A stretch of 64,000 nt of DNA, taken from assembly GCA_026706345.1 (NCBI GenBank), contig JAPOYX010000268.1:1-64000 (forward strand). Reading direction: 5' to 3'. The position numbers and the translations under genes were made by a program. Below, piece after piece: positions 13,749-54,909 of the stretch (within the stretch, counting starts at the first letter, position 1; the number at the start of each line of letters is the position of its first letter). The stretch comes from Gemmatimonadota bacterium (GTDB lineage: Bacteria > JAAXHH01). Under the pieces are notes generated by a model. It had not been told where the DNA came from, did not search any database, and saw only the letters and a list, made by a program, of their open reading frames with translations.

Positions 13749-13755
13749 GCGCGGA

Positions 13756-15925: not shown

Positions 15926-15970
15926 CACTCCGGCCCGCCAGACGCCTCTTTGTGTACCCGGGCGCACTCG

Positions 15971-16900
15971 TCACCTCCTCGTGTACCCCAGCCGCCTCAA
16001 CTCCTGCTCATTCTTTCGCCAGGAGGGCCGGACCCTGACCCGCAGGTCGAGATAGACGGGGCGGTCCAGGAAATCGACGACGGCCTTCCTCGCGGACGTG
16101 CCGATGTGTTTAAGCATGCGCCCGTTTTTTCCGATGACGATGCCCTTCTGGGAAGATCGCTCGATAATGATACTCGCCTGGATGAAGGCCGTACCATTGG
16201 GCCGGTCCGTAAAATCCTCCACGATCACGGCCGACGCGTAGGGCAGTTCTTCGCGGACGGCGAGGAACAGATGCTCCCGGATGATTTCTCCCACGAAAAA
16301 CCGTTCCGGCTGGTCGGTGAGCATGTCTTCGGGGTAGAGCGCCGGACCCGGCGGGAGCGCGCGGATGACGGCGGACAGCAGCGGTTCGAGGCCGTCACCC
16401 TCGAGGGCGGACACGGGCACGATTTCGGTGAAGGGGAAGCGGTTGGCGGCCTGGTCGATCAGGGGCAGCAGGGAAGTTCTGGACGTCCGGTCTATCTTGT
16501 TTATCGCCAGGATCACGGGACCGCGGCTCTGTTCGAGGAAGCCGACGACCCGGTCGTCGAGGTCGCGGGCGAACCGGGTGGCGTCCACGATGGCCACGGC
16601 GGTGTCCGAATCGTGCAGGGTATGGACCGCGGACTGCAGCATGTATTCCTGGAGCCGGTAGCCGGGTTCGAGCAGGCCGGGCGTATCCAGGAACAGGAGC
16701 TGGCAGGTCTCTTTCGTCAGAATGCCCAGTACCCGTTGGCGGGTGGTCTGGGGCCGTGGCGTCACGATGGACAGCCGATGCTGCAGCAACGCGTTCATCA
16801 GGGTGGATTTGCCCACGTTCGGTTTCCCGACCAGGGCCACAAACCCCGCGCGATGCGGTCCGTCGCCGACAGCGCCTGCCATCTGCCCGGTGGGTTCCAT
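15971..16900 (-). CDS. era: GTPase Era, ribosome assembly
   Basis: 309 residues from ATG 16898-16900, chosen for the AAAGGACA ribosome site just upstream and because the reading frame further upstream crosses a repeat spacer. G motifs: GKPNVGKS (25-32), DTPG, NKID, SAL. The C-terminal KH domain has the GKNGRMLKHIG loop. Era binds the 3' end of 16S rRNA and the 30S subunit during maturation. The length matches the family (about 300). Confidence 0.95.
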   Translation of the reverse strand: MEPTGQMAGAVGDGPHRAGFVALVGKPNVGKSTLMNALLQHRLSIVTPRPQTTRQRVLGILTKETCQLLFLDTPGLLEPGYRLQEYMLQSAVHTLHDSDTAVAIVDATRFARDLDDRVVGFLEQSRGPVILAINKIDRTSRTSLLPLIDQAANRFPFTEIVPVSALEGDGLEPLLSAVIRALPPGPALYPEDMLTDQPERFFVGEIIREHLFLAVREELPYASAVIVEDFTDRPNGTAFIQASIIIERSSQKGIVIGKNGRMLKHIGTSARKAVVDFLDRPVYLDLRVRVRPSWRKNEQELRRLGYTRR

Positions 16901-16945
16901 GAGATGCTGTCCTTTACGGTACCGCTTATTCACCTGTGTTTCAAT

Positions 16946-16981
16946 ACACCTGCATGTAACGCTACACCTATACGTAACGCT
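16946..16981. repeat. 18-bp direct repeat in the era/aminotransferase spacer
   Basis: Two imperfect 18-base units starting at 16946 and 16964, both of the form ACACCT-N6-TAACGCT. A degenerate third partial copy lies just before them. The repeat sits between the divergent era and aminotransferase genes. Confidence 0.65.
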
Positions 16982-17106
16982 TCGTCCGGAAAAGAAAAAG
17001 GACTGTTTCATTTCCCTCTGCCGGTTTTGCGGCCAATGGGTGTATATTGGAGCACGACTTCGGCATCCGTACGATGTTCGGCCTTATCACAGGAGAACAA
17101 CGCGCT

Positions 17107-18024
17107 ATGAAAGAACCGGTCGTCTATCTCAATGATGGCTTCGTCCCCGCTTCTCAGGCGCATATAAACATCTACGACCTGGGGATCGTCCTGGGCGCCA
17201 CCCTGACCGAGATGACCCGTACGTTCAGGCACGAGCCTTTCCGCCTGGAGGAGCACGTGAAGCGGCTTCTGCGGTCGTGCAAGTACGCCGGTATCGAGCT
17301 GGCCCTGGACCATGCCGGGTTGGTCGAACGCACGCGGACGCTGATCGAAACCAATAGCGGGCTGATCGGTCCCGAGCAGGACCTGGGCGTCGTCCACTTC
17401 GTTACGGCGGGGGAAAACCAGATCTACGCCGGCAGCGCCGGGAAACCGGCGCGCCTGGCGCCTACCCTGTGTATCCACTCCTTCCCGCTGCCCTTTGCCG
17501 TGTGGCGGTCCTACTTCGAAGAGGGCGTCCACGTGGTCACCCCCTCCATCCGCCACGTACCGCCCCAGTGCGTTGATCCCAAGATGAAAAACCGCTCGCG
17601 TCTGCACTACTGGATGGCCGACAGGCAGACCCAGGCCGTCGACCCCGCGGCCGCCTCGCTGCTGCTCGATCTGGACGGCAACCTCACCGAGTGCTCGGGA
17701 GCCAACTTCGTCGTAGTGGAAAACGATACGATCTTTACGCCCACCAGCCGCCACATACTGGAAGGGGTAAGTCTGGTCACGCTGCGGGAACTGGCGCCCG
17801 AATTGGGACTGGGCTGGGTGGAAAAGGACCTGCAGCCCTACGACGCCGTCAATGCCGACGAGGCCTGGCTGACCAGCACGCCCTACTGTATTGCGCCGTG
17901 CACGCGCATCAACAGTACGCCCATCGGAAACGGCAGGACCGGCCCGATGTTCGGGCGGGTGATGGAAGCGTGGAGCCGTAATGTGGGCATGGATATCATG
18001 GAGCAGTTGAGAAACGTGGACTAG
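17107..18024 (+). CDS. Class-IV PLP aminotransferase
   Basis: 305 residues from ATG 17107, which follows ACAGGAGAAC. The fold-type IV family is clear: VYLNDGFVPASQAHINIYDLG at the start, the PLP-Lys motif K159-x-x-N (DPKMKNRSRL), and LTECSGANFVVVENDTIFTP for phosphate binding. The family includes branched-chain and D-amino-acid aminotransferases and aminodeoxychorismate lyase. YFEEGVHVVTPSIRHVPP fits the BCAT/DAAT side better than PabC. It is divergent from era. Confidence 0.85.
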   Translation: MKEPVVYLNDGFVPASQAHINIYDLGIVLGATLTEMTRTFRHEPFRLEEHVKRLLRSCKYAGIELALDHAGLVERTRTLIETNSGLIGPEQDLGVVHFVTAGENQIYAGSAGKPARLAPTLCIHSFPLPFAVWRSYFEEGVHVVTPSIRHVPPQCVDPKMKNRSRLHYWMADRQTQAVDPAAASLLLDLDGNLTECSGANFVVVENDTIFTPTSRHILEGVSLVTLRELAPELGLGWVEKDLQPYDAVNADEAWLTSTPYCIAPCTRINSTPIGNGRTGPMFGRVMEAWSRNVGMDIMEQLRNVD

Positions 18025-18051
18025 ACGGCTTGCGCGCGTGCGCGCCTTCAT

Positions 18052-18160
18052 TACCAGAGTTCTGTACCAGACCAGCGTTCCATACCAGGGTTCTATGAAT
18101 CGAATCGGGGCAATCGAGGGTTCCATGAATCGGGTCCCGTGAATTACCATGAATCTCGAA
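18052..18160. repeat. Degenerate direct repeats in spacer
   Basis: AGGGTTCTATGAATCG at 18087 and AGGGTTCCATGAATCG at 18117 are 30 bases apart. Weaker relatives (ACCAGAGTTCTGTACC, ACCAGCGTTCCATACC, TACCATGAATC) flank them. The 18025-18300 spacer otherwise holds only the heme-operon promoter candidate. Confidence 0.55.
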
Positions 18161-18214
18161 CCGCTCCCACGACCAGGCCAGATCGCCGCGGCTGCTTCAC
18201 ACCCCCCATTAAAC

Positions 18215-18243
18215 TTGATAAATACATGATATGACGGTATTTT
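18215..18243 (+). promoter_or_regulatory. Candidate sigma-70 promoter of the heme operon
   Basis: TTGATA (18215-18220), a 17-base spacer, then TATTTT (18238-18243), about 58 bases before the HemX-like start codon. It is the only well-spaced pair I found in this spacer, and the following genes through HemL all run on the plus strand. Confidence 0.5.
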
Positions 18244-18300
18244 AGGGTATCTTGTCAGCCGTCGAGTTTTGAGCCGGAGCCGGGTCGAGGCCGGATCATC

Positions 18301-19122
18301 ATGGGTATCTACATTCTACACGGGTTGATTCTGGCGGGTTACGCGGTCGCCACAGTGATCTATTTCCGTCATTTCTGGACGAGACAGCCCCGGACCGGGT
18401 TCTACGCGAGCCTGTGCCTGGTGCTGGCGCTGGTTTTCCACAGCGCCTTTCTGATCGCCCGGGGCTTCGAATCCAGCCACGCGCCTTTCGTGGGCCTCCA
18501 CGAGTCGATGAGCTTCTTCGCCTGGCTCATCGCCGTGGTCTACCTGTTCCTGGAGCGCCGTTTCCACGACCGGTCGCTGGGCGTATTCGTCCTGCCTCTC
18601 GTCCTGGCGGCGCAGGCGGCGTCCACGGCGTTTATGAGTCCCGTCGACCCCCTGCCGCCCCTGCTGCAGAGTCCCTGGTTCAATTTCCACGTAACGGCCA
18701 GCTTCCTGGCGTACGCGGCGTTTTCCTTCTCCTTCATCACGGGGCTGCTGTACGTCATGCAGATGTATTACATCCACCACCGCCGCGTGGGCCTGGTGTT
18801 CTCGCGGCTGCCCGCGCTGGGCATGCTGGACGAGATGAACCTCAAGGCGACGCTTATAGGCTGGGTATTCCTCTCGGCGGGCATCGCCACGGGCATCTGG
18901 TGGGCGACGGCCGCGTGGGACTCGATCACGCCCTGGCTGCTGGACCCGAAAGTGCTGTGCGTGATGCTGACCTGGGTCATCTTCACTTCCCAGCTTGTAA
19001 CCCGCTATACCGTGGGATGGCAGGGCGAGCGGGCGGCAATCATCTCCATGGCCGGGTTCGCGTCCGTGCTGCTGGCCTATCTCGGCGCCGGACTCTGGAC
19101 GAACCTGCACATCTTCGACTGA
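18301..19122 (+). CDS. CcsA/HemX-type integral membrane protein
   Basis: 273 residues with eight hydrophobic segments (for example 4-22, 35-53, 70-84, 92-110, 127-150, 182-200, 212-232, 245-265). Histidines sit in membrane-edge positions as in the CcsA/CcmC heme-handling family (LVFHSAFL, GLHESMSFFAW, WFNFHVTASF). Its place ahead of hemA matches HemX, which affects HemA levels in Gram-positive bacteria. A cytochrome c assembly role is the alternative. It lacks the tryptophan-rich WxWD heme loop of true CcsA. First gene of the heme operon. Confidence 0.75.
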   Translation: MGIYILHGLILAGYAVATVIYFRHFWTRQPRTGFYASLCLVLALVFHSAFLIARGFESSHAPFVGLHESMSFFAWLIAVVYLFLERRFHDRSLGVFVLPLVLAAQAASTAFMSPVDPLPPLLQSPWFNFHVTASFLAYAAFSFSFITGLLYVMQMYYIHHRRVGLVFSRLPALGMLDEMNLKATLIGWVFLSAGIATGIWWATAAWDSITPWLLDPKVLCVMLTWVIFTSQLVTRYTVGWQGERAAIISMAGFASVLLAYLGAGLWTNLHIFD

Positions 19123-19174
19123 GGACGGCAACCAGACGACGGCGGTCAGGCAGCGGAGACTGGACGGCGGCGAT

Positions 19175-19207
19175 TGACGGTAATGCGACAACTGACGGTA
19201 ATGCGAC
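19175..19207. repeat. 18-bp direct repeat before the siroheme gene
   Basis: The 15-base word TGACGGTAATGCGAC starts at 19175 and again at 19193. The second copy ends two bases before the siroheme synthase ATG at 19209, replacing the position where a ribosome site would be expected. Confidence 0.75.
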
Positions 19208-19208
19208 C

Positions 19209-19853
19209 ATGAAGAAATACTATCCCGCGTTTGTAGACATCGAGGATCAGTCCTGCCTGGTCGTGGGCGGTGGCGGGATCTCTGAGGAAAAGGCGGCCGC
19301 GCTCCTCGATTGCGGGGCCGAAGTAACGGTAGTCAGTCCCGATTTGACGGAAGCGTTGCGCGACCGGGCGGACCGCGGTGAAATCCGTTGGATCGCAAGA
19401 CAGTACGAACCCGGCGACGTACGGGACTTCCGGCTGGTCATCTCCGCGACCGATTCGACGGAGGTCAACGAACGGGTCTACCGCGACGCCGAGGCGGAGG
19501 GCGTCATGGTCAACGTGGTGGACGTGCCCGCGCTGTGCCGGTTTATCGTACCTTCCATCGTCCGTCGGGGCGACCTGTGCATCGCCATATCCACGGGAGG
19601 CAAGAGTCCCGCGCTGGCGAAGAAGATCCGTGGGGAGCTGGAAGGAGCCTTCGGCACCGAGTACGCCGTCCTGCTCGACCTGCTGGGACAGTACCGTCCC
19701 CGGATGAAGGCCATGTACCCCGATGAAATCGAAACCCGGGCGAGGTTGTGGACGTCCCTGGTCGATTCCGATATCCTCGATCTGATACGCGAAGGCCGCG
19801 CGGACGAAGCGCGCGACCGGGTGGAGTCATGCATCTTACCCTCGTCGGACTGA
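19209..19853 (+). CDS. Precorrin-2 dehydrogenase/ferrochelatase (Met8/CysG-N type)
   Basis: 214 residues from ATG 19209. The NAD-binding N-terminus reads CLVVGGGGISEEKAAALLDCGAEVTVVSP, the block typical of siroheme synthase N-terminal domains. VVDVPALCRFIVPSIVRRGDLCIAISTGGKSPALAKKIR is the conserved middle. It oxidises precorrin-2 to sirohydrochlorin and may insert iron to give siroheme. The methyltransferase that makes precorrin-2 is encoded downstream in the HemC-CobA-HemD frame. It overlaps hemA by 25 bases. No ribosome site is visible before the ATG. Confidence 0.9.
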   Translation: MKKYYPAFVDIEDQSCLVVGGGGISEEKAAALLDCGAEVTVVSPDLTEALRDRADRGEIRWIARQYEPGDVRDFRLVISATDSTEVNERVYRDAEAEGVMVNVVDVPALCRFIVPSIVRRGDLCIAISTGGKSPALAKKIRGELEGAFGTEYAVLLDLLGQYRPRMKAMYPDEIETRARLWTSLVDSDILDLIREGRADEARDRVESCILPSSD

Positions 19854-41292: not shown

Positions 41293-41478
41293 CTACAGGG
41301 TTGCTCCGCAGAGACCCTCTTCCCTACGATCCTCTAGTACAAGGGTGATGGCCTCCGACAAACTCTCGCGGGCCTCTTCCTTGGTCGTCCCTTGACCATT
41401 TGCTTCCGGAATTTCGGGACAAAGGGCTATGAATAGGTTTTCGTCCCGTACGATAATCGCCCTGAACTTGTTTTTCAT
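41293..41478 (-). CDS. HicB-like antitoxin-fold protein, solitary
   Basis: 61 residues with the HicB/UPF0150 pattern: FRAIIVRDENLFIALCPEIPE, then GTTKEEARESLSEAITLVLED. Full HicB antitoxins usually pair with a HicA mRNA interferase and often have a DNA-binding tail. Here there is no HicA-like gene on either side and no tail. It may be a stand-alone regulator or an antitoxin remnant at the island edge. Confidence 0.75.
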   Translation of the reverse strand: MKNKFRAIIVRDENLFIALCPEIPEANGQGTTKEEARESLSEAITLVLEDRREEGLCGATL

Positions 41479-41509
41479 ACAGGGTTTCCCCCGATTTCTC
41501 TATTTCATT

Positions 41510-41803
41510 TTAAAACGATACTCCTTGATGCAATAGGTATTCGTACTCAGCTCTGGTATAGACCAGGAGATCATTGGGAATCTCCTTGTTGATCTTCTAA
41601 ATTCAGTGCTTCGTCGAAATTCTCTTGTGTACTCTCTCTTCGTAAGTCTGCGACATAACTTCAAATTCCAGTATAATCAGAAGGTCGACATCACTCTCCA
41701 GATGCTCTCTATCCAGCGCATGAGATCCAAAAAGTACAATCCGGTACGGGTCGAGTGACAGCAGACAGGTAACGATGCTATGCACAGTATTGGTTTGAGT
41801 CAC
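41510..41803 (-). pseudogene. MNT-type nucleotidyltransferase, two in-frame stops
   Basis: The first 66 codons encode the minimal nucleotidyltransferase motif GSHALDREHLESDVDLLI (G-S-x(9-12)-D-x-D). The frame then meets TGA at 41603-41605 and TAG at 41597-41599. In the same frame, and without a shift, it goes on to encode KINKEIPNDLLVYT and YEYLLHQGV before TAA at 41510-41512. This tail is what the family normally has. MNT proteins usually pair with a HEPN toxin, and none is present here. It is therefore a decayed or two-codon-mutated gene of about 97 codons. Confidence 0.75.
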
Positions 41804-41893
41804 TGTGATTCCCGGGAACGCTATACAGTTTGGTGGTCAGCATCCTATTGGCTATCCTGTCTTCATCCAAGTACTACCACATCAAATTCATGA

Positions 41894-44833
41894 TCACTCG
41901 TCCAAATCCAAAAACTCGAGTTGTCCTCCCCGAAGTAGATCGTCTCGAGTACGTTCCACAGTTTTGCGTACGTTTTCGTCTGCTTGGTTGCGACCAGCTT
42001 TCAGAATAGCCTTTGCATCGTCAGACGGGATGTAGATCAGGCCCTCTTCCGGCATGGAACTGATCAACTTGGCGAAACAATCTACAACTTTCGCAGTATA
42101 CTGGGGAATCATCTTACGTAGCGCCCTAGTATGCAGAGAAGCATGTCGGGGTTCACCGAATTTCGAATCAAGAACTTTGGGTACTTCTAGAATCCTTGAA
42201 TAGGCATCCAATCTCCAATCGGCGTCCAGGCATTCGGCCTCCAGCCAAAAAGTGAACTCGCGGAGTTCTCTCGGTTCTCCTGTATTCAGGCGCCATTCGT
42301 AAAAGGTGTATACCTTATCCTTGAGCGTTTCGTCAAGTTGCTGTTTGCCTGTACTACGCAATCTACGACCCACATGGTCGAATAAAGTCGCCCACCGCTT
42401 AGATTCACTCGCGACTTGGCGATAGAATCGTTCCAGCAAACTACCAGTTCCCGTCATTGGAAACACGCCTTGTACGTAGTAGATAAACAGGTGTTCTCCT
42501 AGTGCATCGGGTACCTCTCGGCCGATTTTGGTCTGTTGACTCATGCCATCTACGTGGTTCAGAGCAAACTCGTAGTCGTCGCGAACGTATTCAAAGATCG
42601 GCATGTAGGGTCCATTTCCACACAGAAACTGTCCAAAGCCTGCCTGCCAAGCAGGTAGATTGTCTTTAGGGAAAAAGTCTGATATGTTCTTAACTGCCAC
42701 AGATTCGTGCAGTTCGTAAATATGCGGGAAGTACTGACCTAGAAGGGCGTATTCTGGAATTGTCAATGGATGACCGACTTCCGAACTAAATCTTTGTTCG
42801 AGAATAGACTCAATTTCCTTAATCTCCGATTCTTGATCATTTCTGCGGATCCACCAGCCAAATTCGACCATACTTCTTAAAGCACGCCCCCGAATACTGT
42901 TTACCGCTTCATCGTAAGGTTCGTTTTCTAGCGTACGTCGGTCTAGGGCCCAGTCAAACTGTGTGCAGATTGCTTTAAGTAAACTGGCAAGTCCTTCCCT
43001 AGCTGAAATCGGGACATTGACTTCCTCCTTCAGACAGGTTTCGACGAAATCACTGACGGCGCGTCTTGAAGAATGCCAACTCAAATCTTCTCTCAATTGA
43101 TCGGCGTAACGAATTGGAGTCTCAAGGTCTTTGTCCTGATGGGAAATCACCCACTGACAGAATTCGCACCATTGTCCAAGTCGTTCAATGTGCCCCTGTT
43201 CGATTTGCGCTTGTATCGCTTGAATCATGTGTTGGACAAAAATCGGCCGCTTGATCAGTATTCGTTTTTCACCTAACCAGAACGCGAGCTTGTTATCGTC
43301 CGGTATTATCGAACTGGTGAATACGGACTGAAACGCACAAGCCAAGGCTGGTACGTTGACTTTAATCGTCCAGTCATCCTTGTCCGAGTGTTCATCCTGC
43401 CATTCGTTTATGAACTCCAGCAAATCCTCATCTGAGAATGCTGATAGTTCTTCTGGGGACTTTGGACTTCGATAGGTAAACATACCGCCATCCGATGCAC
43501 GAAATGACAAGTACGTGTCATCCGTAACATCGTTTTCGGTCTCATCGTCGAGGAGACTCTGGTAGTAGGTGGCATACTTCCCGAATAGGCACGTAGAAAA
43601 CGGTCTGAGTTGCAGTCGATGGTACTCCAACGTCCACCGTTCGTAGTCCGCTTCCCTAAACTGGTCTCCGACCCATTCACGATATGCTTCCCTTTCAGGT
43701 CCGCTGAGGATCAATTCGAAAATCCTGGTTCGTTCTTCTTCTGTGAGTAATGCGTCCCCGAAATGATCACAGGACAGATTAATCATCCGCTGTAATTCGT
43801 AAGGGTATCTCCAGTATTTCGCGTAATCACTGTAGCCAAGAATCAGTTCACGAATCCAAGGCTTTGTCTGATCATTTGGATATAGAGCGTACAGGTGTAG
43901 CCTGATCCGTTCGAATACGAGCCACCGTTGATTTCTTAAAACGCTGTCTAAGCATGCAATCGAGTCGTTTGATAGCTGAGCATAAACTCCTTTACAGGCA
44001 TTGACCAACGTGTTTACAAGAGTTTCTTTTGACTCTGCGCTGTCTCGGCGTTGTTCTTCTAGTTTTGGACACCATATTTCTGAAGAGTCGTACCGTAACC
44101 CTCTTTCGAACTCGTCCTGATGGGATTCAAGGCTAATCATATTCGCTGTAGCATCAACCAACATACAGGCGACCTCAAAAGGCTTTTCCAATGCCAATGA
44201 ACGAACCCCTATGTCCATGATTTGTTGATAGTTCCAGTCATCAAATTGGGGGGAAGGTTCAAGCAGTGAGTCTATTGACGCTATTTCATCATTCTGTTTG
44301 TTCGTCGAATGTCGCCTGCGCTTCTCTTCATCCCGAGGATCGGGGTGAAATTGGACGAGAATCTTTGCAAGTTCTAATGCAGCTTGCATTTGATTCTCGG
44401 AAGTCCAATGAACTAGTAGGTCTGCAAATTTGTGAGGTAAGAGATGGTATTGAAGACCGGCATAATTTGTTATTTTTGCTTTAAGTTGAACGGATTGTTC
44501 ACCTTTAAGCATAAGGACTATGTCTAAAATGTCATCGTAGACTCTAGGATTGTCGGTCTGAGGAAGCTTGGCAACTATGTCGACTACTTCACCCGGTGCT
44601 TTTTCAGTAACATTCTTGAGGTATTGCAGTTCCGGCCACGGAGGATATTGGACGAAACCATCGGGCAAATGTCTTACACCCGGTGGGGACGTGAAAGAGT
44701 CACGCTCGAATAGCGGCTGAATCCAATGAGGGTTTTTTAACTGAGAGAAGAACTGTTGACGGTCGGTTTGTCTCTCAAACATCCCCAGCGTTCTGTCTAC
44801 TAATTCATCTGTTGGTTTCTTCCAGGATTTCAT
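41894..44833 (-). CDS. Large uncharacterised protein of the defence operon
   Basis: 979 residues that I do not recognise. There is no signal peptide, membrane segment, Walker motif, PLD or PD-(D/E)xK motif that I can see. The chain appears mostly helical with many Trp/Tyr/Phe residues (DDWNYQQIMDIG, YSDYAKYWRYPYELQRMINL, REWVGDQFREADYERWTLEY), suggesting a helical-repeat or scaffold protein. The ATG at 44833 lies 29 bases inside the preceding gene, so it is translated together with the 209-residue protein and the methylase. GC content is clearly lower than in the flanking core. A structural or effector role in an antiphage system is inferred only from its neighbours. Confidence 0.85.
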   Translation of the reverse strand: MKSWKKPTDELVDRTLGMFERQTDRQQFFSQLKNPHWIQPLFERDSFTSPPGVRHLPDGFVQYPPWPELQYLKNVTEKAPGEVVDIVAKLPQTDNPRVYDDILDIVLMLKGEQSVQLKAKITNYAGLQYHLLPHKFADLLVHWTSENQMQAALELAKILVQFHPDPRDEEKRRRHSTNKQNDEIASIDSLLEPSPQFDDWNYQQIMDIGVRSLALEKPFEVACMLVDATANMISLESHQDEFERGLRYDSSEIWCPKLEEQRRDSAESKETLVNTLVNACKGVYAQLSNDSIACLDSVLRNQRWLVFERIRLHLYALYPNDQTKPWIRELILGYSDYAKYWRYPYELQRMINLSCDHFGDALLTEEERTRIFELILSGPEREAYREWVGDQFREADYERWTLEYHRLQLRPFSTCLFGKYATYYQSLLDDETENDVTDDTYLSFRASDGGMFTYRSPKSPEELSAFSDEDLLEFINEWQDEHSDKDDWTIKVNVPALACAFQSVFTSSIIPDDNKLAFWLGEKRILIKRPIFVQHMIQAIQAQIEQGHIERLGQWCEFCQWVISHQDKDLETPIRYADQLREDLSWHSSRRAVSDFVETCLKEEVNVPISAREGLASLLKAICTQFDWALDRRTLENEPYDEAVNSIRGRALRSMVEFGWWIRRNDQESEIKEIESILEQRFSSEVGHPLTIPEYALLGQYFPHIYELHESVAVKNISDFFPKDNLPAWQAGFGQFLCGNGPYMPIFEYVRDDYEFALNHVDGMSQQTKIGREVPDALGEHLFIYYVQGVFPMTGTGSLLERFYRQVASESKRWATLFDHVGRRLRSTGKQQLDETLKDKVYTFYEWRLNTGEPRELREFTFWLEAECLDADWRLDAYSRILEVPKVLDSKFGEPRHASLHTRALRKMIPQYTAKVVDCFAKLISSMPEEGLIYIPSDDAKAILKAGRNQADENVRKTVERTRDDLLRGGQLEFLDLDE

Positions 44834-45434
44834 TTAGGCTCCGTGCTCGACTATATGCGCTCGTTGCGGCAATATGTAGGAATTCTTCGAGAACCTTAAA
44901 ACAATATTCAACTTTGGAAAAGGTTTCAGGAGGGAACTTCTTTTCGCGTAAGTGAGCACATTCTACGAAGAATCCCCTCGCTTCATTCCATTTTCTGAGA
45001 TTAGTGATTCTGTCTATATCTGATTCTCCCAAAAACGTGTTTAAGAAGAATTCACCTTTCCCCTGACTCCTCTTACGTCCCCCCTCATGCTCCTTTATTA
45101 GCTTTGTAACCAATTCACATACATCGAATGGGATCATATGGCTTTTTTCATCATGTTGAGAGGAAGTAAGGCCTTTGCCACGCCATTCATCTTGCCACTT
45201 ATTCTGTAGTCTATTCACCAAATCGACATACTGGACTTGCGGGTTCGTGATTCCGGCTACGGTTTGGGGTAATGAGTTTAGGATATCTCTACCGGTGTGC
45301 GATACAAAAGTCACGTATCCTGGTGCTTTCAGTTTTAGTAAACATACCGCACCTTTGTAAGCATCCGCATAAACCGGCAAGTGCAGAATGTCATTCATCC
45401 ACGCGAATATCTGATGCTGATTTTCTTTTAGCAT
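44805..45434 (-). CDS. Uncharacterised 209-residue protein of the defence operon
   Basis: It starts at ATG 45432-45434, in a TGATG overlap with the methylase stop, which is typical of reinitiation. The N-terminal half is mixed (YADAYKGAVCLLKLKAPGYVTFVSHTGRDILNSLP). The C-terminal half is helical (KVEYCFKVLEEFLHIAATSAYSRARSLNEILEE). A conserved-looking stretch WNEARGFFVECAHLREKK has an Arg and His in helical register, but the spacing does not match the HEPN Rx4-6H motif. No function can be assigned. It overlaps the 979-residue gene by 29 bases. Confidence 0.8.
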   Translation of the reverse strand: MLKENQHQIFAWMNDILHLPVYADAYKGAVCLLKLKAPGYVTFVSHTGRDILNSLPQTVAGITNPQVQYVDLVNRLQNKWQDEWRGKGLTSSQHDEKSHMIPFDVCELVTKLIKEHEGGRKRSQGKGEFFLNTFLGESDIDRITNLRKWNEARGFFVECAHLREKKFPPETFSKVEYCFKVLEEFLHIAATSAYSRARSLNEILEETNR

Positions 45435-48400
45435 CAACGTCCCAAACGGTACTTGATGTCGTAATTGATGATGAAATCCAATTCCTCATCAGTGAAGTCA
45501 TAATGTTGGGCAAGTATGCGATCGATTTCGTCTATTATCGGTTTAGATTTTCTTGGATAGTATTCGTCGTATTCGACTAACCCAGTCGCTTTGTATATTG
45601 CTTTCTTTCTCCCACTATGTCGCTTGTAATCCAACATTAGTCGTGTTGATTGAACTGAGAGGCTTTCAGTGATCTCGTGTACAAACTCCCGAACGCCGGC
45701 AGGAAAAGACATTATCTCATGTCGACCACAGTGATAACCCTCAAACATAGAATACCACCACCAGAAGTAAAGATTCGAATTCAGCACGGCCAACAAAGAG
45801 CGGTTTGCTTCCGATGTGTCTAATTGATACGGTTTATAATCTGCGGACTTTTTCTGGCCGTCCACCTCACTATAAAAATAGGGAACAAAATCAAGTGCCT
45901 TAACAAAGTTGTACGGAATACGATGGACATAGAATGAAGGGGACATAGTCGATTTTGTTCTATACATTACCAAGCTAAACTTGCTTAGTTTTTCCAATAT
46001 CTCTTTCGCTGTTCTGTGCCCTAACTTTGGAATCAGATTACGCCTCTCGTCCCATAATGATGCGTGAAAAAGGAGAGTTGGGAAAAGTATGCTTCTTTCC
46101 TCAGGCTTCCACCGATTGTAACATGTTGTGAATATCCTAGATTCGTTAGTACATTCAGATAGCACGAGTATACAGAGTCGCTGTTTGGCGCCTTCGAATA
46201 ACTTGCTTGGATAGACATCAAACGTGCTTAGAAATGTATCCCGTTTTTCGTTAATCAGTAGTTGCTGGAGCTTTTTCATTCTGGTTGTAGCCTGTAAGCT
46301 GAGCGGAACGATAAACCCGAATCTAGCCTGCTCATGCATAAGTTTGAGTGAGTTTTCGATACAGTAGGCGTAAATATTGCCACACTTTTGAGTCTGCATT
46401 CCATTTACTCGATAAACCTTTTTGATCTTGCTATACTCCACATACGGAGGATTCCCGATAATCACATCAAACCCCCCACCTTGAGTAATCCCAAAGAACT
46501 CAACGAACCAGTGAAAAGGCTGATGGCTATCTCGCCATTGGTCATATGCTTCTTGATCTTCGGTTTCTACACCGTATTCGCCTGCCAGATATCCGTCTAA
46601 CTCCACGCGAAGATCATTTAGTCGTTCTCGAAGGATCAATTTCGTTTGTGCGAAATCGCTCGCGTTTAGTTCGTGCTGAGTCTGCATGCTCTGGAATCGC
46701 CGAAACGCTTCGTCTGCGTCTCCGGCGCGTGCTTCGATCTTCGGGATCTCTAACTGCTTGATCAGGTTGGACCCGAGTACCCTCTTAACCTCTTCCAGCG
46801 ACGCAAATCCGACGAGCGTGTTGCCGGCGCGTATGTTGAAATCAACGTCCGGTAGCGGCTCAATCTGATCGTAGTTCTCCAACTGGGCGACAAGTTTCAG
46901 GAAGAGCCGCAACTTGCAAATCTCCACGGCTTCTTCCATGATGTCAACGCCATAGAGATTGTTGACGATGATGGACTTCAGGATGAAGTATGTTTCGTTC
47001 TCGTGGCTGGCCACCTCATCGAGCACTCTGCGGAAGTCGTTTAGGCTTTCAGGGTGGTGTTTTCTTTTCGAGGTTTTTTGGTCTTCGAGGAACTGCCGCA
47101 TCGCATCCAGACAAGCGGAGTAAATGGGTTCCAAGATGTTGAGCGCAGCGAACAGGAAAGCTCCGGACCCACATGTTGGGTCAAGTACGGAAACCTTTGC
47201 AATACCCTCCCAAAACGCCCGGACCAACTCCGGTCCTTCGCTCCAACTGATTACGTCCTGCGTGAACTTCTCAATGTCCAGATTGTAGGTGATAAGGTCG
47301 TTGATTGAAGTGACTTCACCGCTTGCGAGTTTAGCACGGATTTCCTCATAACGTTCTCGTCTGGCGACATGCTCGCGCCAGGTCTCGGTGGGGAGGGCAT
47401 ATTGGGCAGGCGCAGCTTTGTTCCAGTTAACCCTTTTAGACACGTCTTCTAGGCCAGCGTCAATATCCGGTGGCAATTGACGTTTCTCGTCTAACGGTAC
47501 GCCGTTATGGACGTCATATGTAGTCCCGTGACGCATGGCCTCATAGAAGTACCTGTCCGGCTCATCCTGTAACAAGCGCCATACACCGCGCCCGGGCGCG
47601 AAAAGCGATGGGCAGTGATTCTCTGCTTCGTCGAAGAGATAGGGCAGTATGGTATTGCGGCTGATGTACCCAGTGATGTCCTCTTTGGTATAGTAAGCGC
47701 CCATCTGCTTCTGGTTGATGTACTTCTCGAAGATGTAACCGAGCACGTCGGGGTTTATCTCGTTGTCATTATGCAGGGGCCGGTCGTCAAGGTGCCACTG
47801 ATAGGCGTCGAAGAAATCAAATGTGCGTGTGAACGCTTCATCTGGGATCTCGATCTGCGGTTCGTCTCGTTCCAGGTCATGCACGTCGAAGAGACCACCG
47901 TTGAGATACGGGACGTTGCCGATCAACGCCGTTAGATCCGGTGAGCGGTTGGACTCGGGTTGACCGAGGCCTTCATGGAAGAGACGCAGAAGAAACTGTC
48001 GATAGAAACTGTGGAATTTGCCGTGGCCTTCCGCGTCTTGTACTGTGCTTAATTTGTTACGGAGATAGTCCGAGTCGCCGTCGAGGAATCCGCGCTTCTG
48101 GATGAAGTAGATGAACATCATCCGGTTCAGCATGATCGAAGCGTACCACTCACGGTCGGCCATCTCCAGGATGCCTTCGATGAATCGCAGGAAAGTCTGG
48201 TGTTCGGTCTTAAATCGGTCGTAGAATCTCTTAGTTACCCTCTCCACATCAAATGCGGCACGAACACGACCCGATACATCGACAATGGACAGATCTTCTT
48301 CCTCTTCAATACTAAAAACCAGACGCTCCAATTTCTGGATCAACGCTTCGCCTGACTGTTCTCGATTGTAGAGATGTGACCGGGATTGGCCCGGTTGCCC

Positions 48401-48729
48401 TGGCTCGCGTTTCACCCACTGCCAGCGTTGCGTGGAATGGTCCTGAGGTGTGTAGACTATTATATGTTCGCGTACGGCCTTAGTAACCTGCTTCTCGATC
48501 TTCTGACGAGTTGGATAGTCGGGTAATTCGACATCTGACGATGCCACCTGCTGATACGCGACCATGCCGCGTTTATGTGCGATGGCATCGAGACGATAAG
48601 CACGTTCATCTACCGTTACCTCCAGGTTCTCTCCACCATGATCCAACCTAGATCCTCAATGAAGAGTGGCTGTAGATCGAATTCCTCAAGACGTTCTCGA
48701 ACCTGATCTCTGTTTATCTGTGTAGGCAT
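45434..48729 (-). CDS. Eco57I/DrmMI-like adenine methylase, frameshifted near start
   Basis: The uninterrupted frame 45434-48646 encodes 1070 residues with the class I methylase motifs DPTCGSGAFLF (motif I, about residue 485) and NPPYVEY (motif IV, about 730). A TaqI-like target-recognition region follows. The natural start is probably the ATG at 48727-48729 (ribosome site GGAAAG), giving MPTQINRDQVRERLEEFDLQ through FIEDLGW. One base is then missing at about 48643 (TGG-GAT became TGGAT), and the long frame carries on as DHGGENLEV. It would methylate adenine to mark self DNA, perhaps with restriction activity. First gene of a coupled three-gene operon. TTG 48646 could serve as a poor alternative start. 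Confidence 0.82.
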
Positions 48730-48877
48730 AGATCTTTCCAGGAACACGCGTTGCGTGAAGAATCATGCAATCCCGTCGATTAACTCAACCTGATTGCAAC
48801 GTTAGGAATCATATCAGACGACAACTTAATGTAGCACAATTTCGATAAACCTACGGTTGCAGAGACATAAAATGTTA

Positions 48878-48906
48878 TTGACAACGAAAGAATCAATCCG
48901 TATTCT
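48878..48906 (+). promoter_or_regulatory. Promoter candidate for the AbiE pair
   Basis: TTGACA (48878-48883), 17 bases, TATTCT (48901-48906), 51 bases before the AbiEi ATG. Downstream, TTCTC (48934-48938) and GAGAA (48946-48950) form a short inverted repeat where an autoregulator such as AbiEi could bind. Confidence 0.55.
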
Positions 48907-48956
48907 CTAACTAGTATAACTTGCTTACTATAATTCTCGTTATAAGAGAAATAAAG

Positions 48957-49760
48957 ATGACAAATACTAGTATCGATAACAAACGATCATACCCGATTGG
49001 AAGACTAAGGCTTTCAACGGTATTACAAGACGCGAACGAAGTCATCGAAACCGAGGATGTGGTTAAGGCACTATCGGTGACACGTATCGAAGCCTCCAAG
49101 CTATTATCCAGATGGACAGGTCAAGGATGGTTGCGACGCGTAGGGCGTGGGGCGTACGTACCTGTTCCCTTGGATTTACTTGGCAACCGTTATGTTTTGG
49201 ACGATCACTGGGTACTTGTGCCATCACTTTACGGATCATCCTACATTGGAGGATGGACCGCTGCGGAGTACTGGGACCTGACGGAACAATTGTTTAATGA
49301 CACAGTCGTGATTACGTCGAATCCAGTTCGACGAAAGCAGCAGATTCGACACGGAGCGCGGTTTCTGTTGTTCCATGTTCACAAGCGCAAGGTGTTCGGC
49401 ACTAAGACGGTTTGGCGAGGAAGCACAAGAGTGACCCTCTCGGACATTCACCGAACCATTATCGACATGTTGCATAATCCAAAGCTAGGTGGTGGCATAC
49501 AACATGTGTCGGATTGCCTGGGTGAATACTTGAAGAAGCCCGAACGAAGTGATGAATCGCTGATTGCTTATGCTGAGAAACTGGGAAATGGAGCAGTAAT
49601 GAAGCGCTTGGGCTTCTTGACAGAAAGGCTTTCCGGTCCATCACAACTCACGAAATGGTGTCAAGAACAAATGACCACAGGTAATGCAAGGCTTGATTCC
49701 GCGCTACAATGTACGCGTCTGGTTACAAGGTGGCGGCTGTGGATTCCACCAAGTTGGTAG
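48957..49760 (+). CDS. AbiEi-type antitoxin/transcription regulator
   Basis: 267 residues from ATG 48957. The N-terminal winged helix (VVKALSVTRIEASKLLSRWTGQGWLRRVGRGAYVPVP) is the AbiEi pattern. The following domain, GGWTAAEYWDLTEQLFNDTVVIT and RVTLSDIHRTIIDML, matches the AbiEi C-terminal half. In type IV toxin-antitoxin systems AbiEi represses its own promoter and counters AbiEii. It lies on the plus strand, against the direction of the surrounding island genes, and is followed 15 bases later by the AbiEii-like gene. Confidence 0.88.
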   Translation: MTNTSIDNKRSYPIGRLRLSTVLQDANEVIETEDVVKALSVTRIEASKLLSRWTGQGWLRRVGRGAYVPVPLDLLGNRYVLDDHWVLVPSLYGSSYIGGWTAAEYWDLTEQLFNDTVVITSNPVRRKQQIRHGARFLLFHVHKRKVFGTKTVWRGSTRVTLSDIHRTIIDMLHNPKLGGGIQHVSDCLGEYLKKPERSDESLIAYAEKLGNGAVMKRLGFLTERLSGPSQLTKWCQEQMTTGNARLDSALQCTRLVTRWRLWIPPSW

Positions 49761-49775
49761 GTAAATCAAACTGGT

Positions 49776-51173
49776 ATGATCGATAGACGAGAGATCCTGA
49801 ATGCTGCTGAAGTATCTAATGTCGGCCCCCAAATCGCCGAGAAGGACTACGTCTTGGGGTGGGTACTGTGGGGTATATTCGGGAACGAAGAGCTTGCTGG
49901 AAACTGGGTGTTTAAGGGCGGTACTTGCCTTAAGAAGTGTTTCTTCGAGACCTACCGTTTTTCCGAAGATCTGGATTTCACAGTTAAAGATCCGTCTCAG
50001 TTGAACGCCAGGTTTCTCGAATCGGTATTCGCCGAGGTTAGCGAAAAGGTCCACGAAGAAACCGGGATTGCGCTGCCGGTTGAATTCAGGCGATTCAAGA
50101 TCTACGAAAACCAACGTGGTGAGAAAGCCTGTCAGGGGCGTGTCGGATATCGAGGACCGGTATCGCCACGAGGGAACAACGCGCCGAGGATCAAACTCGA
50201 TCTAATCTCAGACGAACGTATCGCCTTACCTCCTGTTCAAACCCGTATATTCCATCCATTCAGTGACGATCCTGAAAACGGAATCGTTGTGCAGTGTTAT
50301 GCCTATGAGGAGGTCTTTGCCGAGAAAGTACGTGCCCTGGGTGAGAGAACCCGGCCGCGAGACCTATACGATGTAATCAACCTCTACCGAAATGAGGGTA
50401 TTCGTCCTGCGGCGAGAGTGCTACTCGATGTGCTACGTTCCAAATGCGAATTCAAAGGAATCGACGTACCAACTTTGGAAATGCTGGAGCCATTCAGACC
50501 GGAGCTGGAGGGCTCATGGGAGTCAATGTTGGGACATCAATTACCGGCACTACTCCCAGTGCAACACTTTTGGGATCAACTCGAAGAGTTCTTTCTCTGG
50601 TTGTTCGGTGAGCTAATTCCTGAAAGACCTGCTCCGTACACGGGTGAGGAAGGGGAGGAATTGATTCGGGACAGGTATATCTTTAATGCAGTTCCAAGGA
50701 GGGCGCGAGCACATCTCGAGGTTATTCGATTTGCTGCCGCCAATCGGATATGTGCTGAATTAGATTACCTGGGTAGGACACGAACAATCGAACCGTATTC
50801 GTTGCGACTATCCAGGGCGGGCAACGTTGTACTTCACGCGCATAACGTTGACAAGAATGCCCACAGGAGTTACAGGGTTGATCAGATTGAACGTGCTCGA
50901 TTGACCAGTACGGCCTTCGTGCCGCGGCACGAGATTGAGTTAACGCCGACCGGGCCATACAAGATAAAACCTACAGCAATGCGCAGGAGTCTATTAGGGT
51001 GGCCACGCACCAACTACGAAACCCACGGACCGGTATTCATTCTGGAATGTCCTATGTGCGATCGGCATTTCAAACGTCAGAGGAGGAGGACAACAAAACT
51101 CAATCGACATAACGACGAATGGGGTGATCCGTGTCCCGGCCGGTATGGTCACTGGGTTGATACGGAGTATTGA
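49776..51173 (+). CDS. AbiEii-type nucleotidyltransferase with WYL-like tail
   Basis: 465 residues. The N-terminal 290 are an AbiEii/AbiGii nucleotidyltransferase: FKGGTCLKKCFFETYRFSEDLDFTV holds the G-G and D-x-D (Asp65, Asp67) motifs, and AEKVRALGERTRPRDLYDV is the usual helical part. Toxins of this class modify tRNA ends. AbiEii proteins are normally about 270-300 residues. Here residues about 315-390 add a WYL-like fold (AELDYLGRTRTIEPYSLRLS, HRSYRVDQIERARLT), and the last 40 hold a Cys/His cluster (CPMC, later H, CPG, H) that may bind zinc. WYL domains sense ligands in several defence regulators. Confidence 0.85.
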   Translation: MIDRREILNAAEVSNVGPQIAEKDYVLGWVLWGIFGNEELAGNWVFKGGTCLKKCFFETYRFSEDLDFTVKDPSQLNARFLESVFAEVSEKVHEETGIALPVEFRRFKIYENQRGEKACQGRVGYRGPVSPRGNNAPRIKLDLISDERIALPPVQTRIFHPFSDDPENGIVVQCYAYEEVFAEKVRALGERTRPRDLYDVINLYRNEGIRPAARVLLDVLRSKCEFKGIDVPTLEMLEPFRPELEGSWESMLGHQLPALLPVQHFWDQLEEFFLWLFGELIPERPAPYTGEEGEELIRDRYIFNAVPRRARAHLEVIRFAAANRICAELDYLGRTRTIEPYSLRLSRAGNVVLHAHNVDKNAHRSYRVDQIERARLTSTAFVPRHEIELTPTGPYKIKPTAMRRSLLGWPRTNYETHGPVFILECPMCDRHFKRQRRRTTKLNRHNDEWGDPCPGRYGHWVDTEY

Positions 51174-51217
51174 GGGGAACTTTCGAGACCACCGAGGTTC
51201 GTACTCAGGACATCTGA

Positions 51218-54200
51218 TTAGTCTTCCGAAATCAACCCCATCGAGCAGATGATCCTTGGCTCAAGTTCTTCGTCGTCTTCCTGTACGATGCAGAGCCGGC
51301 CTTCGTCTCGGAGCGCAATAACCAGTTCGGACAGGATTTCGTCTGAAACCCCACTACGTAGTTGTCTGTTTAACGTATCCACCGCAGCCTGCCGCAAGGG
51401 ATGGCGGTAGATCTCGTCAATCGCTTTGTGTAAAGCGTCAGACTCGAACAAAGTTCCCTGGATGTTGTCGGCGTAGCTCTTAAGCCTTTCGTATGTTCTA
51501 AACCTTGCGCCTGACGGCCGACCCAACTGCCCGCCGACACGTTTTTCCGACCTTCGTATATGTTTCGCGGCCTGAGTCACTAGTTCGTGGTGTGTATTGT
51601 GACGAACCATCGCCGGTGTATTCGGATCGCATTCGGCTGCACGAAGGATCTCGAACTGACTCTCCGAGATACTTTCACCGTTCCTGTTTACCCACGACAG
51701 GGCGTCGTTACCTTGACCAGTCCGCATATGAACAAGTACACCCTCCGGTCGATTCGGGCGTTCATTGTAAGCTTTCGATGAATGAACACCTGACGGAAGA
51801 TCCTCGATGGTTTTTTTGAGCGACGAATCTGCATCGGTCGCATTGCGCCATATCTGGTACGCATACGAAGATAGATCGACATCCGATTCGTCGTCATCGT
51901 CGAGAATACCGGATTTCTCATTGTAAAGGTCGACCACTGTTTTCGTATCCTCATCCTCGAAGAACGCCTCGTCTGTTCCCACGACCTCGGCGTTCTCCTT
52001 CAGACGTGTACGTACCCGCGCTCTAAGGCGTATCAAGCGCTCAACACCCTCGACCGGGAGGAATGAATAACAGAGGATTTCTGCTGCCTTCTGGCCAATA
52101 CGGTCTACTCGGCCTGCCCGTTGAATCAACCGTATGATAGCCCACGGTAGATCGTAGTTTACGACGATAGCACAGTCCTGTAGATTCTGTCCTTCACTGA
52201 GCACATCGGTGGAGACAAGGACTCGAATCTCGCCGTGGTCGGTCGCATACTGTCGTTTTTCGTTGCAATCCGGGCTGAATCGCCACGCCAGCGCGGTTGG
52301 ATCTGCTGAATCGCCTGTGACCGGGGAAGATTCAGAAACGCCACGGACCTTGAGCTGGTTGTCCAGGTATTGCACCGTGTCAGCAAATTGTGAAAAGACC
52401 ACGACCTTGTGATTCGGGTGTTTCTCCTTCAGGACCTTCTCCAGCGCATCCAGTTTTGCATCCTGCGTCGGTTGCCATGGTCCGGATCTATTGATGAGGT
52501 TCGTCAGTGTTTTGGTGTCAGTTGTGAGAACGCTTTTAAGCTCCGTTACGAATAAGTGTGATGGCAACCACCGAAACCGGTTCTTGAACCGACCGGAGTA
52601 AAGCTCGTAAATCTCGGCTGCTCTTGTTTTAAAGTCCTCTTCGATATTAAGCCCGGTCACACTGCTTGGGACCTCGTTTTCATCTTCTTCGTCCATATCG
52701 AAGATGTTGCCTGTCGCCGAATCCGAATCTTCGTCGTATGACTGTGTATCCAGGATTCCGGTATCCGTTGTCCCAATCGGTAACGGCAGTCCTTGTTCGA
52801 TGGCGTGAAGAAACACGTAGTTGCGCAGAACATGACGTTCGACCGACAGCATGAAGGAATGGCCACTGCTCTCGAGGCGTTTGAACAGGTTGGTTCGGCA
52901 AAATCCCATGAGTCTCTTGCCAGCCCGTGACAGATCTTCGATGATCTTCTTTTCTTCCTGCGAAGGTGCTACGGTCGGTTCCTCCGCAACGTAGTTTCCT
53001 AGACCATAGCGAGGAAGTTCAAGGCTGTTGATGGCATCGACCACATCGTCCGAGAATAACCGGGCGTACTGGCTGTCTATTTCGAACTGGACCGTCCTGG
53101 GTATACGTGTTGGAAAATAGGATCGACTCCCGTCCTCGAAGGTAAGGTACTTACGGCCATCATTATCGTCAGTGGCAGCATAGTTGTCCTGTATGAAGCT
53201 GCGTGTTCTTCGAACGAGGTACAGCCGCATCAGTTCGCGCCAATCGTCCGCGAAGTTGGACTGTTCAAAGGCGGCCAGTGATCGGGCGGGAGCTTGATGA
53301 CGGCGTATGAATTCCGTTTCGCCGATTTCGCGAAGCATGCGCTCCGGTGATATTCCGAGGTCTTCATGTTCCGGAACGAAGAGTCGTAGCTGGTTGGACA
53401 GATCGACGTACGTCTTGTTGTATGGGGTTGCCGACAGCAGGATACACTTACTCTCGTTTTCACTGATGTATTCCCGAATAGCCCTGTATCGCCTACCTTC
53501 GCGGTTCCTGAGATTGTGACTTTCATCAATGATTACTACACGATATCGGCGCATCCCGGGCAGTTCGTTTATAGCACGACTGATCGATAACACCCTGGCG
53601 CGCAATCGGAATTGCTCCCGGTAATCTTTCCACATGGCCTCCAGATTCTTGGGACAAATGATTAAGGTTTCGAGATTGTGATCGTCCTCGAAAATCCGCG
53701 CCAGCGCCGTGGCCATGAGCGTCTTGCCCAATCCAACAACGTCTCCGATGATAACTCCGCCGCGCTTATTCAAATGATGCGCCGCGATCTTTACGGCTGC
53801 CGTTTGAAATTCCAGCAGCTTATTTTCGAAATCGTGGGGAATGCGGAATTCGGCGAGTCCCGCCCTGGCTTCCTGCGAAAGATGATACGCCATCTTGAGG
53901 TAGATTTGATAGGGAGGTATCAGTTCTTCCCTTGCCCAGCTTGCTTCGATGATCTCAACAAGCTCTTTGGATATATCGATGCACCAGCGATCTTCCCAGC
54001 GTGCTTCGAACCACTGAGCTAGTTTCTCGCTGGCATCGTGTTCCATAACATCGACATTTAGTTCTCCCTGTTTGGAGAGTCCGGACAGTGTGAGGTTGCT
54101 GCTTCCCAGGTACCCGACGATCGGGTTTATAGGGTCCGGACGAAACAACAGGTAGAGTTTTGCATGCAGCGTGTGCCTGAGGAACAACCTAACGACGACT

Positions 54201-54580
54201 TTCTTCTCCTTTATCTGTTTGGCAAGCCTTCGTAGTCCCTGTTCATCCGCGTTGCTTGGTGCTCCTGTGGCCAATTGATCTTTGAACTCTTCAGCGAGTT
54301 GTTTCTTAAGTTGAATTACCTTCCGGTTGTCCAAGTCCGACTGGCTTTCGGCCAGGCTGCTGGCTGCCCGAAACTCCTCGTGGGGAAGTTGGTGCATTCC
54401 CACCAGCAATCGGCAGCAGTGGCCTTCTCCACCACTCCATTTCTCCACGTATTGGTCGATGGATCTCCAGCCACGCAAGTTAAGGTATCCCACGCAGAAG
54501 TCTGCACGGTCAGACAACTTCATGGTTTGTGCAAGTGCCGGCAGAAGGGACTGTTCTATGTTATCGAATATCTGAGGCAT
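51218..54580 (-). CDS. PLD-nuclease-like SNF2 helicase
   Basis: 1120 residues. The N-terminal 200 form a phospholipase-D-like domain with HAKLYLL (His139, Lys141) and YLGSSNLTLSG. The helicase core has Walker A GDVVGLGKT (279-287), DESH (352-355), LLSATPYNKT, VVFSQFADT, STDVLSEGQNLQD and QRAGRVDRIGQ, all as in SNF2 proteins. The C-terminal 250 residues are of unknown fold. It would couple ATP-driven translocation on DNA to cleavage or recognition. In DISARM, a SNF2 helicase (DrmD), a PLD protein (DrmC) and a methylase are separate genes. Here the first two are fused. It ends 44 bases from the convergent AbiEii gene. Confidence 0.93.
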   Translation of the reverse strand: MPQIFDNIEQSLLPALAQTMKLSDRADFCVGYLNLRGWRSIDQYVEKWSGGEGHCCRLLVGMHQLPHEEFRAASSLAESQSDLDNRKVIQLKKQLAEEFKDQLATGAPSNADEQGLRRLAKQIKEKKVVVRLFLRHTLHAKLYLLFRPDPINPIVGYLGSSNLTLSGLSKQGELNVDVMEHDASEKLAQWFEARWEDRWCIDISKELVEIIEASWAREELIPPYQIYLKMAYHLSQEARAGLAEFRIPHDFENKLLEFQTAAVKIAAHHLNKRGGVIIGDVVGLGKTLMATALARIFEDDHNLETLIICPKNLEAMWKDYREQFRLRARVLSISRAINELPGMRRYRVVIIDESHNLRNREGRRYRAIREYISENESKCILLSATPYNKTYVDLSNQLRLFVPEHEDLGISPERMLREIGETEFIRRHQAPARSLAAFEQSNFADDWRELMRLYLVRRTRSFIQDNYAATDDNDGRKYLTFEDGSRSYFPTRIPRTVQFEIDSQYARLFSDDVVDAINSLELPRYGLGNYVAEEPTVAPSQEEKKIIEDLSRAGKRLMGFCRTNLFKRLESSGHSFMLSVERHVLRNYVFLHAIEQGLPLPIGTTDTGILDTQSYDEDSDSATGNIFDMDEEDENEVPSSVTGLNIEEDFKTRAAEIYELYSGRFKNRFRWLPSHLFVTELKSVLTTDTKTLTNLINRSGPWQPTQDAKLDALEKVLKEKHPNHKVVVFSQFADTVQYLDNQLKVRGVSESSPVTGDSADPTALAWRFSPDCNEKRQYATDHGEIRVLVSTDVLSEGQNLQDCAIVVNYDLPWAIIRLIQRAGRVDRIGQKAAEILCYSFLPVEGVERLIRLRARVRTRLKENAEVVGTDEAFFEDEDTKTVVDLYNEKSGILDDDDESDVDLSSYAYQIWRNATDADSSLKKTIEDLPSGVHSSKAYNERPNRPEGVLVHMRTGQGNDALSWVNRNGESISESQFEILRAAECDPNTPAMVRHNTHHELVTQAAKHIRRSEKRVGGQLGRPSGARFRTYERLKSYADNIQGTLFESDALHKAIDEIYRHPLRQAAVDTLNRQLRSGVSDEILSELVIALRDEGRLCIVQEDDEELEPRIICSMGLISED

Positions 54581-54666
54581 GTCGGTGTTCCCGAAGAGTT
54601 GCTAAAGTCGATTTACAACAGGCAAATTGACCACATTTCGATCAGCAGTCTGAGAGTATGGACGTG

Positions 54667-54909
54667 TCAGTCCCTAAGCGACGGATCGTAGGGTTGCTTC
54701 CGGAACGATTCGAGATCGAACGGAGGGTGATCGGGAGGAATCTTGTCTCTGAGCGAACCAAGGCGGGAGTAATCGATCCGAAAGGGCTTCAGGATGAAAC
54801 CATCGGGGCTTTCTTTGATTTCAAGTTGGTCGCCCGGACCCACGCCTAGGGCGTCCAGTACGCTAGCCGGGAGTGTGACCTGGCGCTTTGACGAGATTTT
54901 CACGATCAT
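54667..54909 (-). CDS. AbrB/SpoVT-type DNA-binding protein, solitary
   Basis: 80 residues. The swapped-hairpin motif is plain: MIVKISSKRQVTLPASVLDALGVGPGDQLEI. The C-terminus (residues 45-80) is of the short acidic type that binds a toxin in VapB/MazE antitoxins. No toxin gene follows; the PLD-SNF2 gene starts 86 bases downstream on the same strand, so it could be a local repressor of that gene. It marks the right edge of the low-GC island. Confidence 0.85.
   Translation of the reverse strand: MIVKISSKRQVTLPASVLDALGVGPGDQLEIKESPDGFILKPFRIDYSRLGSLRDKIPPDHPPFDLESFRKQPYDPSLRD

Follow-up and report, generated by a model that had tools for sequence, protein, structure and literature searches.

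The CglI and NgoAVII enzymes are ATP-dependent restriction systems in which R, H and M are encoded by three genes (PMC4267653, PMC5737866). A DUF499 ATPase is the defining component of the BR systems, to which Type-2 BR adds DUF3780 (PMC12839542). A paper of 2012 proposed that suicide genes are coupled to restriction-modification (RM) systems, with Sir2 and HEPN domains of Type I and Type III loci among the cases (PMC3506569); in the case of PrrC, the prrC gene is located inside hsd and its product is silenced by EcoprrI (PMC3506569, PMC2610378). DSR2 senses a phage tail tube protein (PMC11087589). The present study concerns an island in the first 64,000 nucleotides (nt) of contig JAPOYX010000268.1 from a Gemmatimonadota bacterium, hereafter the window, which carries a fused PLD-SNF2 helicase, an adenine methylase and a pair of genes for proteins of 210 and 979 amino acids (aa), the larger of which is homologous to DSR1. 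Our preferred reading, to which we assign a probability of about 0.6, is a two-tier defence, in which first-line restriction would be backed by an RM-embedded, DSR1-like abortive-infection module with an exchangeable effector.

An initial annotation of the window had described a defence island linked to methylation, in which PLD and SNF2 helicase are fused and DrmA and DrmB are absent, a description that the present analysis supports. All of its open reading frames (ORFs) were present in the ORF list of the window, and the layout, with an AbiEi-AbiEii pair on the strand opposite to the other genes, was borne out by the coordinates and by Pfam and PADLOC. Domains and families were assigned from Pfam and PADLOC scans of the six intact island genes, together with some NCBIfam cutoffs. 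The island is not one unit; it consists of three layers, a helicase-methylase core, the 210-aa/979-aa module and AbiE in a variable slot, with the following features.

41894-44833, minus strand: 979-aa all-helical protein, the proposed sensor, with homology to the stretch of DSR1 that follows SIR2
44805-44833, minus strand: 29-nt dual-coding overlap between the end of the 210-aa gene and the start of the 979-aa gene, exact in 17 of 19 loci
44805-45437, minus strand: 210-aa helical protein (209 aa from ATG), the proposed exchangeable effector and conserved partner of the 979-aa gene
45434-48646, minus strand: IIG/Eco57I-type N6-adenine methylase, 1070 aa from TTG, second core gene (PADLOC REase_MTase_IIG)
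48646-48729, minus strand: first ~29 codons of the methylase in another frame, which reads MPTQINRDQVRERLEEFDLQPLFIEDLGW
51218-54580, minus strand: first core gene, a PLD-SNF2 helicase-nuclease of 1120 aa (Pfam PLDc_2, SNF2-rel_dom and Helicase_C)
48921-49760, plus strand: AbiEi antitoxin, variable-slot cargo (PADLOC AbiEi, 387 bits)
49776-51173, plus strand: AbiEii nucleotidyltransferase toxin with a C-terminal WYL domain, same slot (PADLOC AbiEii, 590 bits; Pfam AbiEii and WYL)
41469-41893, minus strand: MNT nucleotidyltransferase, decayed (in-frame stops), once part of an MNT/HEPN toxin-antitoxin pair

On the evidence of the gene neighborhoods compared here, the 210-aa and 979-aa genes are a module independent of the helicase-methylase core. 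Both proteins had been regarded as unrecognised, which stands for the 210-aa protein but not for the 979-aa protein, since the latter matched PADLOC Dsr1 (6e-17). Relatives of the 979-aa protein aligned to Dsr1 model positions ~302-1217, down to 1e-55. A true DSR1 homolog (L089, 1792 bits) had SIR2_2 at residues 128-265 and a second one (L091) likewise had SIR2_2, while no SIR2 was found by Pfam in the window protein or its relatives. Since the alignment starts at ~302, the 979-aa family corresponds to the region of DSR1 behind SIR2. The whole of that region aligned with the family, and both are large all-helical proteins. The island module differs from DSR1 in that SIR2 is missing, the N-terminal slot is taken either by the 210-aa gene, by a fused domain akin to its product or by PIN_12, and the module is embedded in RM operons. 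A PDB sequence search with the 979-aa profile returned a repeat protein as the sole match.

The 979-aa gene was accompanied by its conserved 210-aa partner in 18 loci, and the dual coding of the overlap (EILEETN*/MKSWKKPT) was conserved in most loci. The stop of the methylase gene and the start of the 210-aa gene overlapped by 4 nt. Three residues of the 210-aa protein, R50, W81 and H162, were invariant in a six-member alignment. A canonical HEPN assignment was rejected because R-x4-6-H is not conserved there, the sole Arg...His pair being distant. The putative effector slot was filled in different ways. In the sister genome G011, the 210-aa gene was missing and a PIN_12 nuclease domain was found at the N-terminus of the 979-type protein; at other loci, the N-terminus was a fused domain for which hhalign gave a relation to the 210-aa protein (E 1e-8). 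Moreover, the 979-aa genes were mosaic, with aa 1-200 tracking the effector type and the remainder recombining separately. The window protein and that of the sister genome G003, both of which are accompanied by the 210-aa gene, were 77-78% identical over aa 1-200 and 40-63% beyond, whereas the corresponding values for the PIN form of G011 were 41-48% and 56-70%. Most simply read, aa 1-200 would provide the coupling to the effector and the remainder would be the sensor. In G003, a 627-aa protein with no Pfam match, absent from the window, was encoded behind the 990-aa gene (L018:7812-9695).

The scan of genome contigs gave G003 as the only match, the plasmid scan gave two remote 979-like matches and none for the 210-aa protein, and scans of viral contigs for the two genes gave no match. 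No description of the module was found in the open-access literature (subscription papers were outside the search). We would lay even odds that the pair and its fused forms constitute an unnamed RM-embedded abortive-infection module, with an NADase-free DSR1-type phage sensor and an exchangeable effector, distributed over at least four unrelated classes of methylation-based restriction operon.

The module, in its separate or fused form, was located between Type III mod and res in nine loci (L092, L097, L098, L100, L103, L107, L109, L112 and L113), and the same embedding was partial in five others (L099, L102, L105, L110 and L111). It followed hsdM/hsdS of Type I systems in L086, L115 and L119, stood behind DrmD-like and DrmMI-like genes in a DISARM-like arrangement in L088 and L116, and was found beside a divergent methylase in L085. 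The module was on the same strand as the RM genes, with junctions of a few nucleotides in several loci. Type III Mod lay within 11 kb of 12 of the 28 module copies of the G331 phylum, where 0.12 were expected (binomial 1e-21, a value that is only indicative given the relatedness of these copies). The tree placed a Type III/PLD-SNF2 clade apart from a Type I/DISARM-like clade, and for this reason the changes of RM partner are taken to be few over evolution but real. In L098 (G410, 12832-19500), repeated Type III mod genes were interleaved with a number of incomplete copies of the 210-aa/979-aa module, which suggests a recombining array.

The PLD-SNF2 helicase and the IIG-type adenine methylase are, judged by their conserved adjacency, a two-gene core that resembles an ATP-dependent RM system. 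The helicase had the motifs HAK (139), GSSNLT (159), Walker A (279), DESH (352) and QRAGRVDR (820), and its RE_NgoFVII PLD domain scored 27.5 bits (cutoff 23.8). Full-length or split orthologs were present in 20 of 384 sampled genomes, 17 of them outside the phylum (of ~368) with 48-75% identity. The initial annotation would have been refuted if helicase and methylase were never neighbors elsewhere, which is not the case; a methylase homolog was the next major same-strand gene in 15/15 of the helicase loci in unrelated genomes outside the phylum with a readable downstream side, that is, those of the 17 not cut downstream by a contig end, and in three of these one or two small genes preceded it. 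The pair was also conserved on most of the plasmids examined from Cyanobacteria, Actinomycetota and Pelobacter (Synechocystis, Picosynechococcus, Anabaena, Pelobacter, Rhodococcus, Pseudarthrobacter, Gordonia and others), with Dolichospermum and Leptolyngbya as exceptions. The content of the slot, whether this lay between the two genes or behind them, varied: VapBC, zeta toxin, Uma2, DarTG, a HEC-01-like ATPase with DUF4276, HNH with MTaX1, a DRT-type reverse transcriptase or AbiE. On pSYSX of Synechocystis PCC 6803, a model cyanobacterium (L024, 43696-51129), VapBC lay between the helicase and methylase genes; no methylation data for this ortholog were found in the open-access literature. Between the window and the two sister genomes, the helicase was 92-95% and the flanking genes 91-93% identical.

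Like CglI and NgoAVII, the island has a PLD-type nuclease with a helicase-like ATPase plus a methylase, but nuclease and helicase are fused and the methylase is a large IIG-type enzyme. With Type-2 BR/Hma it shares an HKD/PLD nuclease N-terminal on a SNF2 helicase and an N6-adenine methylase, but DUF499 and DUF3780 are both lacking, and membership was rejected because no island protein matched DUF499. The SNF2 helicase, PLD nuclease and adenine methylase functions also occur in DISARM class 1, from which the island differs in the lack of DrmA/DrmB, the fusion of PLD to the helicase and the weak match of the helicase to NCBIfam DrmD (137 bits, cutoff 610); the methylase scored 88 bits against DrmMI versus 1087 bits, over its full length, against the PADLOC IIG model. 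Membership in DISARM was rejected, there being no DUF1998/DrmB and a single weak DrmA match over the helicase C-lobe only. BREX was rejected as well, with no PglZ/BrxC among the island proteins and 59 bits for the methylase against a BREX_1_MTaseX cutoff of 500. No matching named system for the helicase-methylase pair was found in PADLOC, NCBIfam or the open-access literature, subscription papers being outside the search.

The methylase is of the Eco57I type, with DPTCGSGAF (motif I) at 489, NPPY (motif IV) at 732 and a PF07669 match of 98 bits. The frame of the separate 5' segment, MPTQINRDQVRERLEEFDLQPLFIEDLGW, matched the methylase N-termini of G003 and G011, and the ORF starts at TTG because these codons lie upstream in a different frame. 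This comparison points to either a frameshift of one base in the gene or an error in the assembly. No nuclease domain was found by Pfam in the N-terminal region of the methylase, the first ~29 codons of which are in the separate frame. The target-recognition region (aa ~800-1000) was only 25-30% identical between sister genomes, as compared with 80-96% over most of aa 1-600, and a drop limited to this region is the pattern expected with exchanged sequence specificity. Sequence recognition probably resides in the methylase.

The AbiE pair, identified by the motifs GGTCL and DLDF and by full-length PADLOC matches, was situated between the two core genes both in the window and in G011, where the AbiEi copy was 90% identical. 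The initial annotation considered AbiE a dedicated guard nested in the system. However, a DRT1a reverse transcriptase-nitrilase occupied this slot in G003, and G002 had a lone AbiEi, together with an intact MNT/HEPN-like pair, at the same site; AbiE is therefore better described as exchangeable cargo. The decayed MNT gene of the window was 82% identical in DNA to that of G002. In an unrelated genome (L063, G194), the helicase-methylase core was followed downstream by a 23S rRNA-IVP-like gene and then by an AbiE pair, so AbiE joined the core at least twice. In AbiEii, the WYL domain follows the nucleotidyltransferase and may be an uncommon fusion. In G011, the left end of the same island carried a Pycsar pair, an effector (cNMP-binding and TIR) and a cyclase (L019:8628-10252).

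The G+C content of the segment, 42-53% against ~60-69% across most of the flanking DNA, confirmed that it is a low-GC insert in high-GC surroundings. The genome itself falls in a small group of phylum rank close to Gemmatimonadota. Three congeners (G006, G007 and G009) had the same flanking genes with nothing comparable in between, and comparison with these empty sites placed the insertion limits at ~41479-54666. Solitary HicB-like and AbrB-like antitoxin genes were present at both island edges (41300-41480 and 54690-54900) and also at the empty sites of the congeners; these are possible landing marks of a hotspot.

In the two-tier reading, the methylase would mark host DNA at whichever site its fast-changing target-recognition region specifies. 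The PLD-SNF2 protein would act as an ATP-driven translocase that bears a PLD nuclease and, by analogy with CglI and NgoAVII, would cut unmarked DNA. In the second tier, the 979-aa protein would be the DSR1 sensor arm without the NADase and, if it resembles DSR2, would detect a phage cue. The sensor would then switch on an effector, either the separate 210-aa protein, the fused domain or the PIN nuclease, and the infected cell would be killed. Carried in Type III, Type I, DISARM-like and PLD-SNF2 operons, the module would serve as a backup once restriction fails. Several observations weigh against this reading, 1) the RM association among the G331-phylum copies, which are related, is not phylogenetically independent, 2) about ten of the 979-like loci, approximately a third, had no RM genes in view, 3) the frameshift in the methylase could mean that this strain has an inactive core, 4) the 210-aa protein belongs to no confident family, 5) the fused forms matched PF18165 over only ~35 residues, mostly below the cutoff, 6) the fused N-terminal domain linked to Type I systems was more diverged, with a weak link to the 210-aa protein (hhalign prob 7), and 7) AlphaFold models built from two sequences each were too poor to show the fold (pLDDT 46 for the 210-aa and 39 for the 979-aa protein).

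The main rival is a guard of the PrrC type, which would be silenced by contact with the RM complex, freed by a phage inhibitor of restriction and devoid of phage sensing of its own. The PrrC-EcoprrI pair is likewise a suicide module nested in an RM operon, and the positional logic of prrC inside hsd, the translational coupling that the overlaps of 29 nt and 4 nt provide, and the Arg-x3-Glu and later His of the fused forms, which loosely recall the PrrC/RloC triad, all favor such a guard. However, PrrC is an ABC-ATPase/HEPN anticodon nuclease, and neither an ABC ATPase nor HEPN was matched by Pfam in the 210-aa and 979-aa proteins. Moreover, the island module occurs in several RM classes, and because its partners (IIG with PLD-SNF2, HsdMSR, Mod/Res and DrmD/DrmMI) are of unrelated types, one conserved contact surface is unlikely and contact with one specific RM subunit is argued against. 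The loci with no RM genes in view are also difficult to reconcile with a guard of this kind, which we regard as unlikely, if still worth serious consideration.

A less probable explanation is passive clustering, in which defence genes piled up at a hotspot and the module came to lie beside RM genes with no functional coupling. DRT1a, AbiE, Pycsar and MNT/HEPN were found at the same flanks, which were empty in G006, G007 and G009, and helicase-methylase pairs elsewhere had varied neighbors (VapBC, zeta toxin, DarTG, HEC-01 and DRT). However, the module lies exactly between mod and res, or else immediately behind hsdS, on the same strand and in several loci with junctions of a few nucleotides, which argues against this explanation, and the excess of Type III Mod near the module and its embedding in four operon classes are not readily random.

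The single dedicated DISARM-like system of the initial annotation, in which the 210-aa and 979-aa proteins would replace DrmA/DrmB as essential parts of the helicase-methylase machine with AbiE as guard, is very improbable; the parts do lie within one insertion with operon-like coupling in the window and G003, but neither gene was found in any of the 15 helicase-methylase loci read outside the genus (0/15), the module accompanies Type I, Type III and DISARM-like operons, and AbiE is replaced by DRT1a in G003, so that the claimed distinctness from DISARM holds while the four-gene unit does not.

The two-tier reading has consequences for both parts of the island. The helicase-methylase pair, present in ~5% of the sampled bacterial genomes, merits biochemical attention. 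PrrC-PrrI is the one well-studied case of restriction coupled to suicide, and a module that moves among RM classes with its architecture and 29-nt overlap preserved constitutes a natural experiment on that coupling. If one sensor does serve unrelated restriction machines, its dependence on contact with one particular subunit would be unlikely. DSR1 itself would be a modular sensor with a swappable effector (SIR2, PIN or the 210-aa domain), the coupling of which is open to study with chimeras. The recurrence of the module in unrelated restriction operons suggests a reusable backup alarm.

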